This document shows positions 58,727-63,627 of a stretch of DNA of 64,000 nucleotides, piece after piece. Origin of the DNA: Lentisphaera profundi (GTDB lineage Bacteria; Verrucomicrobiota; Lentisphaeria; Lentisphaerales; Lentisphaeraceae); the NCBI RefSeq assembly GCF_028728065.1, contig NZ_CP117812.1, positions 2,356,001-2,420,000 on the forward strand. Direction: 5' to 3'. The translations under genes and the position numbers were made by a program. Below the pieces are notes generated by a model that worked only from the letters and a program-made list of their open reading frames with translations, did no database searches and had not been told where the DNA came from. Numbering within the stretch: the first letter of the stretch is position 1; the number at the start of each line of letters is the position of its first letter.

Positions 58727-59674
58727 TTAAACTTCGCCTAACTCACCTAAGTATCTTTCAGCTGAAAGCGCGGCCATACAACCACTACCTGCTGCTGTAA
58801 TTGCTTGACGCCATTCATGGTCTTGAACATCGCCACAGGCAAAAATACCTTCAATTGAAGTCTTTGCTGTACCTGGCGCAGTCACAATGTAACCCGCGTC
58901 ATCAATATCGAGCTGACCATTTAAAAATTCTGTATTTGGCTTGTGACCGATAGCATAAAACAGACCACTTGCTGCAACGTCTTTTTCCGTGCCATCAACA
59001 TTGCTTTTAACTTTCACATGAGTAAGAACTTTGCCGTCACCTAATGCTTCTAAAGGTGAAGACTGCCAGAGAATTTCAATTTTCTCATTAGCAATCGTTC
59101 TCTCTTGCATAACTTTTGATGCACGCATTTCGTCACGACGAACGACTAAATAAACTTTAGAAGCAAATTTAGTCAAGAACATAGCTTCTTCACATGCAGA
59201 ATCGCCACCGCCAATCACAACCATCGGCTTATTACGAAAAATGGGTAAGGCACCATCACAGACAGCACATGCAGAGACGCCATTCTGCCAGTATTGCTCT
59301 TCTCCAGGAAGTCCTAAACGCTTTGCAGTTGCACCGGTAGCAATAATTACTGAAGCTGCCTCGTACTCAATACCATTCGCTTCTAACTTAAAAGGGCGAA
59401 CACTCAAGTCTATTTTATCAACTGTCTCAGTAAGAATCTCAGTACCATAACGAATTGATTGCTCACGCATATTCATCATTAAGGTAATACCGTCTACACC
59501 CTCGGGGAAACCCGGGAAATTTTCAACTTCAGTTGTTGTTGTTAGTTGGCCACCTGCTGCAACTCCACCTGCCATAAAGCCTTCAAGCATGAGAGGCTGC
59601 ATTTCGGCTCTAGCTGCATAAATTGCGGCTGTGTGTCCCGCAGGGCCTGAGCCTACGATAATCACTTTTTTCAT
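58727..59674 (-). CDS. trxB: Thioredoxin reductase
   Basis: A 315-aa flavoprotein. It has the N-terminal FAD-binding GSGPAGHTAAIYAARAE, the redox-active CAVCDG, the NADPH-binding GGGDSACEEAMFLTKF, and the C-terminal FACGDVQDHEWRQAITAAGSGC. It passes electrons from NADPH to thioredoxin. Length and all motifs are normal. It is separated from the Pol II-like gene by 73 bp. Confidence 0.97.
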   Translation of the reverse strand: MKKVIIVGSGPAGHTAAIYAARAEMQPLMLEGFMAGGVAAGGQLTTTTEVENFPGFPEGVDGITLMMNMREQSIRYGTEILTETVDKIDLSVRPFKLEANGIEYEAASVIIATGATAKRLGLPGEEQYWQNGVSACAVCDGALPIFRNKPMVVIGGGDSACEEAMFLTKFASKVYLVVRRDEMRASKVMQERTIANEKIEILWQSSPLEALGDGKVLTHVKVKSNVDGTEKDVAASGLFYAIGHKPNTEFLNGQLDIDDAGYIVTAPGTAKTSIEGIFACGDVQDHEWRQAITAAGSGCMAALSAERYLGELGEV

Positions 59675-59747: not shown

Positions 59748-62027
59748 TTAAAATTCAAAAAGACTTAGTTGCTCAGCACGGAATAGCTCCTCAAAATTTT
59801 TGCCTACGAGCACCAGGTAGTTATTTGCTACTTTCGCAATTTGTGACTCTATGTAGTGCTCTATATCTGGAGATCGTGGATTCATGGCACTTGGAACAGG
59901 TCCATCATCTAATGTAACAATATATGAAATTACATTCACTGCTGCCGAAGGCTGAAAATGATCTAGAAATTTTTGTAGTGCTATTACTTGTGCTTGATCT
60001 TTCTTTTCGATTAGATCTTTTTGACGTACTTTCCGAAAGTAGGAAAGCTTATCTCGGTGCGTGCCTTCTCTAAATTCTTCTGTAAAACTACGAATCCAAG
60101 CCTGCCAATCAGTTCCCCCAAGTATTTGCTTCAATAACTCTTCTTGGAAAAAGTGTGCTAAAGGCGTCCAACGCGGTCCCGTATTATTCAAACCCACAAT
60201 TTTGAGTTCATCTTCACTCTCTTGATACGCATAGCGAAGGAAATTATCGTTATTTCTTTTTATGAATACAATATTTTCAAATGAATTAACTTTTTCACAA
60301 AAAGGAAATTGGGCTTCTAAACCTAAGTCTAAACAAGCATTTTGAACACATTGATTTAAATGTGCCTCTACATCCACATCAGGATTATCCATGCTCACGT
60401 ATAAATTTGTATCATTCCAAGCTACTAACTTTGCCGAAATCGCTGTCAGTCCTTGATTTAACTCTTCACTCAACCACGCACAAGCTTGGGTGATTGCCCC
60501 TTTATAAGCCGGAGTGAAAAATCTATTGGCAGACTTCAAACTTTCTTCCATGCATTGCTTAAGCGTATGATTTATGGCCCGATACTGCCAGTCGGCATCT
60601 TTAAGTTCCTCACGGTAGGTCAACAAGCTTGATAATTCTTTAGCTAAAAAAGCTTTTTCCTGACAGCGCTTTGCTCCCCAGGGAAGCTCTTCCTCGCCTT
60701 CGGCTTGTGCCAAAGAATAAGGATCAATATCAAATAAACTTGCGACCCAAGCCGTTATTTGCGGAACTCGCAATTGCACGACTTTATCGTGAACTCCTTG
60801 CTCCGAACCTAAATAACGATAGGCATCATTTCTTGAGGTTTTCTTTTCGCCATCACCAAGGGCGACATAGCCACCTTGATGTATTCTAGGAATGCATAAA
60901 TTTTCAAGAATCGTATTATTACTCTCTAGATGACTAAAAGTCACTCCTGACAAACTGCTGCGCGCCGCCATGAACTCTACGACGCCAATCTTCTCGAATA
61001 AGCGCGTTACCAATTCCACATCCTGTAAATTGTATTTCGCTAGATTCTCTTTTTCTTCTACAAACTGACGCTCAATCTCTGCTAATTTATCTTCTTCTCC
61101 GTGTATTAGCTTACCTTCACCTAAGAGCTCTACCGCTACAGTTTCTAAACGATTATTTTTAAAGACGTAGCCCATATCACGAATTGCAGACATGCCCTCG
61201 ATAACAACTCGGCCAGACATATAGGCAAAACTCACTCCCATCATTGGAGAAAAAATATCTGGTTCTTTACCCATTCGGTCTAGTTTAAAATCTAAGTAAT
61301 TACGTTCACAGTATTTCTGTAGTTGATCCAAATCATAACCAATGACATTCCAACCAATAATAATATCGGGATCTTCTGCCGCTATATAATCCATAAAAGC
61401 ATTGAGCAAGTCAGTTTCATTACTAAAACATGTGGTGAATTCATTCATTTCGTGGCGATATTCATCCAGCATGAAAACTTTTTTACGCTCTGGTCCACAT
61501 CCAGTGACATGAACCGCAATTGAAAAGAGGCTATCAATATTGACACCATTTTCTATATCTATTGAGGCTTTCCTAAAGTCTGTCTTGACCTCATAAGGCT
61601 TCATCCGTGGATTTTTAAATACCGCACGACCATCCTTAACTTTGGCGTCTCCCTCTAGCCAAATACCACCGCGTATTCCTAATTCCATCAAGAATCGCTC
61701 ATGGTGTTTAATCTGTGACTCATGAACCGCTTGCCCGGCTTCTTTACATGCATTAAGCAGTCCATTCTGAGCATTTCGTGTTTTAAAGGAGTACGCCTTT
61801 AAATCCTCGCCCTGTAAATTTTTCAGAGAAGTGGACTTCAATTCAAAATCCGGTAAGCCTTCATTGTTTTCTAAATCTGCCGAAAAGAACACTCCGGGAA
61901 CATCTGTAATCAGAATCTCGATCGGCCCCAGTTCTGGTGATCTACCAAAAAAACGAAACCCTAGGCGACCTGCACTTAAATCTGCAGTCTCACCAGTTAG
62001 AAGAAAAGCACTTGCTGCGTAAGTCAA
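59748..62027 (-). CDS. DNA polymerase II-like protein with intact exonuclease but inactivated polymerase
   Basis: A 759-aa B-family polymerase relative from a TTG start, which lines up with the E. coli Pol II N-terminus. The 3'-5' exonuclease is intact: Exo I SIDIE (Asp-157, Glu-159), Exo II PDIIIGWNVIGYD (Asp-232), Exo III YNLQDVELV (Tyr-332, Asp-336). Polymerase motif A, DYKSLYPS in E. coli, lines up with RVPQITAW (Asp to Arg-420); motif B keeps Lys-490 but lacks the NxxYG; motif C YGDTDS reads WNDTNL (second Asp to Asn-541). The C-terminus has a clamp-binding QLSLF. This suggests an exonuclease or structural role on the sliding clamp and not DNA synthesis. Alignment is by eye from memory of E. 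coli PolB. Confidence 0.9.
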   Translation of the reverse strand: MTYAASAFLLTGETADLSAGRLGFRFFGRSPELGPIEILITDVPGVFFSADLENNEGLPDFELKSTSLKNLQGEDLKAYSFKTRNAQNGLLNACKEAGQAVHESQIKHHERFLMELGIRGGIWLEGDAKVKDGRAVFKNPRMKPYEVKTDFRKASIDIENGVNIDSLFSIAVHVTGCGPERKKVFMLDEYRHEMNEFTTCFSNETDLLNAFMDYIAAEDPDIIIGWNVIGYDLDQLQKYCERNYLDFKLDRMGKEPDIFSPMMGVSFAYMSGRVVIEGMSAIRDMGYVFKNNRLETVAVELLGEGKLIHGEEDKLAEIERQFVEEKENLAKYNLQDVELVTRLFEKIGVVEFMAARSSLSGVTFSHLESNNTILENLCIPRIHQGGYVALGDGEKKTSRNDAYRYLGSEQGVHDKVVQLRVPQITAWVASLFDIDPYSLAQAEGEEELPWGAKRCQEKAFLAKELSSLLTYREELKDADWQYRAINHTLKQCMEESLKSANRFFTPAYKGAITQACAWLSEELNQGLTAISAKLVAWNDTNLYVSMDNPDVDVEAHLNQCVQNACLDLGLEAQFPFCEKVNSFENIVFIKRNNDNFLRYAYQESEDELKIVGLNNTGPRWTPLAHFFQEELLKQILGGTDWQAWIRSFTEEFREGTHRDKLSYFRKVRQKDLIEKKDQAQVIALQKFLDHFQPSAAVNVISYIVTLDDGPVPSAMNPRSPDIEHYIESQIAKVANNYLVLVGKNFEELFRAEQLSLFEF

Positions 62028-62167
62028 ATCATCATCCCAAATTTATTTTTTAACCTCGCCAATATGAACGCATTCCTTACATCTTACAACGCAAACCTTG
62101 ACAAGGTGAATAATTTGTTTTTTACTTGTTAGCAACCATATAACTTAATGATCAAGGAGTGTCTAAT

Positions 62168-62893
62168 ATGAGTCAAGATAATGATGAAAGTAAGGATTTA
62201 GAATTAATCCAAGCTATCAAAAAAAGAATAGATAAGATTGAACAATTAAAAAAGAGCCAAACTTCGTTTAGGAATTTTGCTCTCGTTATTATTGTAGTAC
62301 TCATCGCGCTATTATTTGCCCGACTCAATAGCATTGCCAATGAACTAAAAAACAATCAAGATGCCATTGTACAGGCAATAAAAAAAGACTCTGAAGCTCT
62401 ACTACAGAGTCGGCTAGCTGATTTAAAAAAGAAAGCAAAAAGCGAACTACTTCCAAGTATTAGCGCCAGCATAAAAAAAGAATATGCTAAAAACTCCGAA
62501 AAACTCGAAGGTCACATCAAGTCTCTTGAAACTGATCTCCGTAAAGTAACAGAAGACCGAATCCATAAGCTACTTACCAATGCTCTCGATACTGCATTTG
62601 ATAATATCGGTGAAACTTACACAGATGTTCAAATCAAAGAGTTAGAGACTAATATTGAAACTCTTGCAATCGCCATCACAGAGAAAGTAATGGCCACCAC
62701 TGCCGATAGTATCGTTGCACTAGAACCTGAGTTTGATGGTATTGCCGATCGCTTAAGTTCTATCAGCGTCGACGTTGTCAACATTGAAAAAATCGATCAT
62801 GGTCTAGCTGAAAGAAAACTTGTAGCAGCCTTACTCGACCTTTTAAAATACCAAATCGTACCGGAAGACGCTGTTCAACCGGTCGCACAATAG
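62168..62893 (+). CDS. Membrane-anchored coiled-coil protein (first of a pair)
   Basis: A 241-aa protein from ATG 62168, chosen because AGGAG lies 8 nt upstream; a GTG at 62159 is also in frame. One membrane helix lies at about residues 37-56 (NFALVIIVVLIALLFARL), after a short cytoplasmic coiled coil. The rest is helical and charged, with heptad patterns. No known family. It is 11 bp upstream of a gene of the same layout, so the two may form a complex. Confidence 0.75.
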   Translation: MSQDNDESKDLELIQAIKKRIDKIEQLKKSQTSFRNFALVIIVVLIALLFARLNSIANELKNNQDAIVQAIKKDSEALLQSRLADLKKKAKSELLPSISASIKKEYAKNSEKLEGHIKSLETDLRKVTEDRIHKLLTNALDTAFDNIGETYTDVQIKELETNIETLAIAITEKVMATTADSIVALEPEFDGIADRLSSISVDVVNIEKIDHGLAERKLVAALLDLLKYQIVPEDAVQPVAQ

Positions 62894-62904
62894 GAGGATA
62901 AAGC

Positions 62905-63627
62905 ATGAGCAAAACCCAAACAGAACTCGAAGTAATTTCGGCAAAAATCCAAGCCCTTGAAAGTTCGACATCCAAATCTCAAAATATAACTAAAATTGTT
63001 TATTCAATTTTAATCGTCGTAGCAGCTATTTACGCCTTCTACATCCCATCACAGTTGAAGCATATTACTCAACCTGAAGTGATCTCGACAATGGCGATGG
63101 ATCTCGTTGAAGACAAAATTCCTGAAAACGAGGTGATCCTTAAAGGCGTAGAAGATTTAGCGAATCGCGAAATATCTAATGCTTTTAATCAATTGGACAA
63201 AAAAATCCCTGAATTGAAACAGGAAATCATTACGGCTGTAGACACAAATTTTGGCCTTGCAACCGAAAGTATAAATGAACTCATTAGCAATGATATAGCT
63301 AAAATGTTTCGCGATGTTAAAGATAAACTCGATGAAAATAAATCATTAACTCAAGATAAGGATAACTTAGATCGTCTTGCCTCCACTCTTAGTGAAGGAG
63401 TTCAACTTCAACTCAATGCGATCATTGATTCTCACTTAAAGATTGATGTTCTAGATAGCATGCTCGCAAAATTACAATACAAGAAAAACCTTACTCAAGA
63501 AGAGTACACACAGAAACAAGTCATTGCCTACGCTTGGGTTCTAGCAAGTGATGAAGAGTATCGTGAAGAACTCAAGGGTAAAACTCTTGATCTTTTAGAC
63601 AAAGCGAATACGCCAATCGCTGAATAA
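62905..63627 (+). CDS. Membrane-anchored coiled-coil protein (second of a pair)
   Basis: A 240-aa protein with a membrane helix at about residues 30-48 (IVYSILIVVAAIYAFYIPS) and a long helical remainder, the same layout as the gene before it. Sequence similarity to the first is low except in layout, so they may be distant paralogues. GGAGGA lies 8 nt before the ATG. A terminator follows. Function unknown. Confidence 0.75.
   Translation: MSKTQTELEVISAKIQALESSTSKSQNITKIVYSILIVVAAIYAFYIPSQLKHITQPEVISTMAMDLVEDKIPENEVILKGVEDLANREISNAFNQLDKKIPELKQEIITAVDTNFGLATESINELISNDIAKMFRDVKDKLDENKSLTQDKDNLDRLASTLSEGVQLQLNAIIDSHLKIDVLDSMLAKLQYKKNLTQEEYTQKQVIAYAWVLASDEEYREELKGKTLDLLDKANTPIAE

Follow-up and report, generated by a model that had tools for sequence, protein, structure and literature searches.

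A Pol II homolog with an intact exonuclease site and a degenerate polymerase site

The window, a stretch of 64,000 nucleotides from the Lentisphaera profundi genome, carries on its reverse strand (59748..62027, TTG start) a DNA polymerase II (Pol II)-like gene whose 759-residue product is predicted to have kept the exonuclease and lost the polymerase activity (exo+/pol-). As the first-pass annotation of this DNA had claimed, the gene is full length: the reading frame is open and homology extends along the whole protein, with E. coli Pol II as the closest PDB sequence (1q8i, E=6.8e-63, residues 7-756 aligned). The NCBIfam model PRK05762.1-2 recovers it with E=2.8e-102 and 343 bits, under the cut-off of 570. 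The Pfam exonuclease domain PF03104 is detected at residues about 101-280 (61188..61727, reverse strand; E=5.5e-14), and phrog_403, a family of phage exonuclease subunits, matches the exonuclease region with E=5e-8; neither the polymerase profile PF00136 nor PF10108, the stand-alone PolB-related exonuclease, matches the protein up to E=1. The earlier claim that the fold is kept also holds, as the AlphaFold model (mean pLDDT 86.4) has the Pol II fold and its top structural matches in the PDB come from E. coli Pol II (TM 0.80 to 3maq).

All three exonuclease motifs are present on the reverse strand with their acidic residues at 157, 159, 232 and 336, just where they had been reported: Exo I as SIDIE (D157 and E159; residues 155-159, 61551..61565), Exo II as VIGYD (D232; residues 228-232, 61332..61346) and Exo III as YNLQD (Y332 and D336; residues 332-336, 61020..61034). 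Each is invariant in the ten exo+/pol- orthologs described below, and from this site we infer that the exonuclease of the window protein is active. The C-terminal QLSLF, likewise noted at the outset, occupies residues 753-757 (59757..59771, reverse strand), two residues from the end of the protein; it is a predicted sliding-clamp-binding motif, and all ten orthologs display it in the form Q[LMI]xLF.

The polymerase site is degenerate at each of its motifs, which again lie on the reverse strand. Motif A reads QLRVPQITAW (60747..60776), with R420 in place of the Asp and the predicted strand 411-420 retained; motif B reads HTLKQCMEESL (60537..60569), with the K, N, Y and G all gone; and motif C reads AWNDTN (60405..60422), with N538-D539-T540 at the DTD position. 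At columns invariant in canonical Pol IIs, the substitutions in E. coli numbering are D419R, S422Q, L423I, Y424T and P425A in motif A, K493N, N497K, Y500M and G501E in motif B, Y543A, G544W, D545N, T546D and D547T in motif C, and additionally K615L. The loss of the motif A Asp to R420 thus stands as first described, but the count of two lost motifs out of three does not, because motif B is lost too. The reading of motif C as a change from DTD to DTN was one residue out of register. In the AlphaFold model of the window protein the motif C hairpin comprises strand 532-537, turn 538-540 and strand 541-546, and in the model of the second Pol II of this genome (see below) strand 514-518, turn 519-521 (D519-T520-D521) and strand 522-526. 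As both the ungapped alignment and these hairpins put N538, D539 and T540 at DTD, both catalytic Asp of motif C have been replaced. These observations strongly support the prediction that the polymerase of the window protein is dead.

Compared with the features of DNA polymerase II (bacterial PolB group G1), the window protein thus has the full-length homology and fold, intact DEDDy exonuclease residues and, in its sequence, the predicted C-terminal beta-clamp motif QLSLF; the feature it lacks is an intact set of polymerase motifs (A, B and C). Judged from its sequence, it shares the descent of Pol II but would not function as a DNA polymerase II.

Distribution and conservation of the exo+/pol- proteins

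The ten exo+/pol- orthologs come from all six Lentisphaeraceae genomes searched, Lentisphaera marina included, and from four Acanthopleuribacteraceae of the phylum Acidobacteriota, which are four of the 93 genomes of the class of Acanthopleuribacter pedis. In a scan of 84,980 genomes, from which the best 80 loci were retained, the exo+/pol- pattern occurred among those 80 only in Lentisphaeraceae and A. pedis, and the remaining loci with sequence covering the motifs were canonical. Because all 46 canonical Pol IIs sampled for comparison have a complete set of catalytic residues at the two sites, and ten orthologs in two phyla share the loss, the loss goes beyond chance. A search of relatives for the same losses had been proposed with the first-pass annotation, and the close relatives indeed lack the normal motifs; the orthologs in six of six family genomes and in four Acanthopleuribacteraceae rule out a strain-specific lesion.

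Elsewhere in the Acidobacteriota, Pol II-like matches were found in 30 of 396 sampled genomes; the readable ones besides A. pedis have the polymerase motifs, one match has a changed Exo III Asp and two are interrupted by gaps. An acidobacterial Pol II that is canonical in other respects (L182, G737) has Ala in place of the Exo III Asp (HYDFTAARL), possibly an independent loss of proofreading. An apparent second split Pol II in the acidobacterial genome G779 is an assembly artifact: the canonical enzyme lies there in two parts (L209, L210) 3 Mb apart, whose ends are X runs at masked stretches and scaffold gaps, probably through a scaffolding error. Loci L006-L010, with MDTDGIYF as motif C, fall in a different bacterial PolB group. 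A phage origin was rejected, as the viral scan returned six distant loci only, and the sites of the five longer ones are intact. Genome G086 (L060), whose record title is Lentisphaera araneosa HTCC2155 isolate LE-02apr19-111, is placed in another genus of Lentisphaeraceae, and its exo+/pol- protein is very divergent (35% identity to the window protein).

The exonuclease residues D156, E158, D229, Y331 and D335 are present in all ten exo+/pol- proteins, which have no polymerase motif residue in common. At the canonical-invariant columns these proteins retain 96% of cells in the exonuclease domain, and 46%, 36% and 17% in palm1, fingers and palm2. The Acanthopleuribacteraceae proteins retain the motif A Asp, and that of A. 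pedis has the catalytic Asp of motif A and both of those in motif C (ADRDL), with motif B and the remainder of motif A lost; decay has therefore gone to differing depths in different branches.

These retained Asp residues could be taken to mean that the proteins are still polymerases with a remodeled active site. There is a precedent in PolB2 (Dpo2, group G2), a B-family polymerase of archaea and bacteria whose active site is likewise degraded and whose archaeal form was once called inactive and later shown to be active (PMC8764526, PMC11791011). However, PolB2 typically lacks one motif C Asp only, whereas in the window protein the Asp of motif A, the two Asp of motif C, the K, N, Y and G of motif B, and K615 are all missing. 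PolB2 combines a dead exonuclease with an active TLS polymerase (PMC11791011, PMC8764526), the reverse of the pattern seen here. The first-pass annotation had named other acidic residues in the palm site as what would speak against polymerase loss; the palm motifs of the ten orthologs share no such substitute set of acidic residues. We accordingly consider a remodeled polymerase very improbable, though Dpo2, predicted dead and then found active (PMC11791011), remains a caution even with far more of the site lost in the window protein.

Variation of the polymerase motifs between genomes would also be consistent with drift of the palm in a gene on its way to loss. Against this, all ten orthologs, in two phyla, are open and full length, in line with the earlier claim that there is no decay by frameshift. 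No part of the protein is better conserved within Lentisphaera than the exonuclease domain (90% vs 73% in palm2), and dN rises from 0.06 in that domain to 0.155 in the polymerase half. At 80% protein identity the synonymous sites have reached saturation, which rules out a formal dN/dS within the genus and means that the dead polymerase half is constrained as well. For the pair A. pedis/G390 each half of the gene gives an omega of about 0.06, indicating purifying selection in the polymerase half too. By these measures the predicted exo+/pol- protein is maintained rather than decaying, and a gene on its way to loss is a scarcely credible reading, close to refuted.

A second Pol II with the reciprocal defect

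Genome-wide questions on the window organism were answered through family searches, and these uncovered a second full-length Pol II of 752 residues in L. profundi (G000:C2:204629-206884; L002 889-3147). In this protein the polymerase motifs DFKSLYPSI, KILMNSFFGVLG and YGDTDS are intact and Exo I, II and III are destroyed. Pfam gives it a polymerase match to PF00136, a weaker one to PF03175 and none to an exonuclease domain, as against both PF03104 and PF00136 in canonical Pol II; its model (pLDDT 85.3) is a Pol II, with TM 0.89 to 3k59. It is more like PolB2 in its working but groups with Pol II.

Such exo-/pol+ proteins are encoded by five of the six Lentisphaeraceae genomes, each time accompanied by an exo+/pol- gene; none was found in G086, a 92% complete genome of this family. 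D156, D229 and D335 are each missing from all five, and the polymerase residues are present in five of five, with Phe for Y500. They retain 38% of cells at the canonical-invariant columns of the exonuclease domain, and 97%, 73% and 100% in palm1, fingers and palm2. At the C-terminus they end in QQxLF, a weaker match to the clamp motif. On the evidence of these residues, each of two full-length proteins in one genome appears to have kept one of the two jobs of Pol II.

Evolutionary history

The exo+/pol- proteins of the two phyla group in a single clade (SH-aLRT 100 for the whole protein, 90 for the exonuclease domain alone) near the Pol IIs of Calditrichota and Ignavibacteria, a placement that points to transfer of the gene between phyla. 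The exo-/pol+ proteins form a separate clade beside L031, a canonical Pol II from another member of the class. AU tests rejected the grouping of the two kinds of protein (p 1.25e-5) and of the Lentisphaera exo+/pol- proteins with the exo-/pol+ proteins (p 1e-34), subject to the same limitation as the trees, which came from quick searches and contain some long branches (L060, L030). Separate clades and rejected joint groupings lead us to reject recent duplication and subfunctionalization, and indicate that two Pol IIs with distinct ancestors were each reduced, one at its polymerase site and the other at its exonuclease site.

These relationships bear on the idea that the two proteins form a stable complex in Lentisphaeraceae, a split Pol II acting as a heterodimer or as an obligate pair on the clamp. 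The losses are reciprocal, both genes occur in five of the six family genomes with no exo- gene lacking its pol- counterpart, both proteins are full length with C-terminal clamp motifs, and the exo- proteins hold nearly all polymerase-domain residues. Yet the genes are non-adjacent and of separate ancestry rather than a duplicated pair, and the exo+/pol- gene occurs without the other in Acanthopleuribacteraceae and apparently in G086, so that we regard such a complex as unlikely. A looser arrangement, in which proteins of separate ancestry became a mutually dependent two-gene Pol II on one clamp in Lentisphaeraceae, through a complex or by hand-over, is a somewhat better prospect, though still a tentative one.

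Functional implications

We favor, as the probable role of the window protein, that of a clamp-tethered 3'-5' exonuclease trimming 3' ends in trans for polymerases that do not proofread. The intact 3'-5' exonuclease would be carried on the DNA-binding chassis of Pol II, consisting of the N-terminal domain, palm and thumb, and the C-terminal QLSLF would tether it to the sliding clamp, where its substrates may be primers, mismatched or stalled, that other polymerases on the clamp have left behind for want of proofreading. In Lentisphaeraceae the client would be the second Pol II, exonuclease-dead and polymerase-intact, with its QxxLF-like clamp motif; as the clamp is a dimer, the two proteins could share one ring. 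Both clamp binding and the identity of the client are what we infer from motifs and co-occurrence. The exo-/pol+ gene elsewhere in the genome changes the most likely role from that given by a first reading of the window alone. The original proposal of an exonuclease-only Pol II on the clamp is nonetheless supported, at the level of prediction, by the catalytic columns, the conservation by domain, the Pfam matches, the predicted fold and the orthologs. It is established that eukaryotic Pol delta proofreads in trans for Pol alpha (PMC6153641), a precedent that makes the mechanism plausible.

In the four Acanthopleuribacteraceae genomes we found no polymerase-competent B-family enzyme, with positive search controls; given that these genomes lack an exo- Pol II and that none was found in G086, retention of the exonuclease is independent of that partner. 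The same four genomes encode a second, DnaE2-like DnaE with an adjoining Y-family gene, as in ImuB-DnaE2, but DnaE2 is widespread and its co-occurrence is therefore weak evidence. Y-family polymerases are found in all ten genomes with an exo+/pol- gene. So are DnaQ-like DEDD exonucleases, which means that the window protein is not the sole proofreader and gives no support to replacement of a missing epsilon subunit.

The ImuB protein of the DnaE2 mutasome resembles the window protein as a dead polymerase on the clamp that serves an active non-proofreading polymerase, but differs in being a Y-family protein without an exonuclease. ImuB docks on the sliding clamp. Inactive polymerases with structural roles are known, and one has been proposed in archaea (PMC2527604); by analogy, the dead polymerase body might hold other proteins on the clamp, with the exonuclease incidental. 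Retention of the clamp motif and whole fold would fit such a structural or regulatory pseudoenzyme, but invariant catalytic residues in the most conserved domain of the protein are unexpected for an incidental activity, and we think it improbable. The full-length B-family fold likewise outlasts the polymerase site in the C-terminal half of eukaryotic Pol epsilon, in inactivated archaeal PolBs and in poxvirus F12. In these both activities are reported to be lost or probably lost (PMC2669801, PMC2527604, PMC4304020), unlike the exo+/pol- proteins with their exonuclease site invariant in ten of ten.

Separate proofreading or PolB-related exonucleases occur as E. coli Pol III epsilon (DnaQ), PF10108 and phrog_403, but these are small stand-alone nucleases without a polymerase body. 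Bacterial PolX, with an inactive polymerase and an active PHP exonuclease, follows the same logic of an exonuclease outliving the polymerase (PMC12926913), in an unrelated family and nuclease fold. The window protein shares length, fold, exonuclease site and C-terminal clamp motif with E. coli DNA polymerase II (G1; 1q8i/3k57-3maq) but has none of its three polymerase motifs. A 2026 survey of bacterial DNA polymerases found both sites conserved in group G1 and, PolX aside, the exonuclease site generally less conserved than the polymerase (PMC12926913). The proteins of Lentisphaeraceae and Acanthopleuribacteraceae are an exception to the G1 rule with the opposite bias, in two phyla and, in Lentisphaeraceae, beside their mirror image; in the literature searched we found no earlier description of an exonuclease-only Pol II. 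The pair offers a natural separation-of-function system for asking about proofreading in trans on the clamp. The exo+/pol- family also calls for caution, because automatic annotation labels its members DNA polymerase II: that of A. pedis (L063 6001-8295) scores 631 bits, over the 570-bit NCBI equivalog cut-off, and would therefore be annotated as a working polymerase.

Genomic context

The two genes lie in separate stretches with different neighbors, and by eye no operator or regulatory site shared by their upstream regions was seen. Directly downstream of the exo-/pol+ gene in the L. profundi genome, a small gene pair resembling a YefM/YoeB-type toxin-antitoxin system was noticed by eye (L142 8974-9580). 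The downstream neighbor of the window gene is a thioredoxin reductase-like gene (58727..59674, reverse strand), identified by eye and found close to the exo+/pol- gene in three further genomes. On the other side of the window gene are two divergently transcribed forward-strand genes (62159-62893 and 62905-63627, together 62159..63627), whose products each have one apparent membrane helix and a long coiled coil and match no Pfam family above cut-off. Similar pairs of coiled-coil membrane proteins flank the exo+/pol- gene in L. marina and G086 (L148 1139-2798). About 60 bases upstream of the window gene, within 62061-62129, are strongly conserved among three Lentisphaera species and, as a pattern in the DNA, might be a promoter or operator; the perfect 6-1-6 palindrome ACCTTGTCAAGGT in the same stretch is particular to the window.
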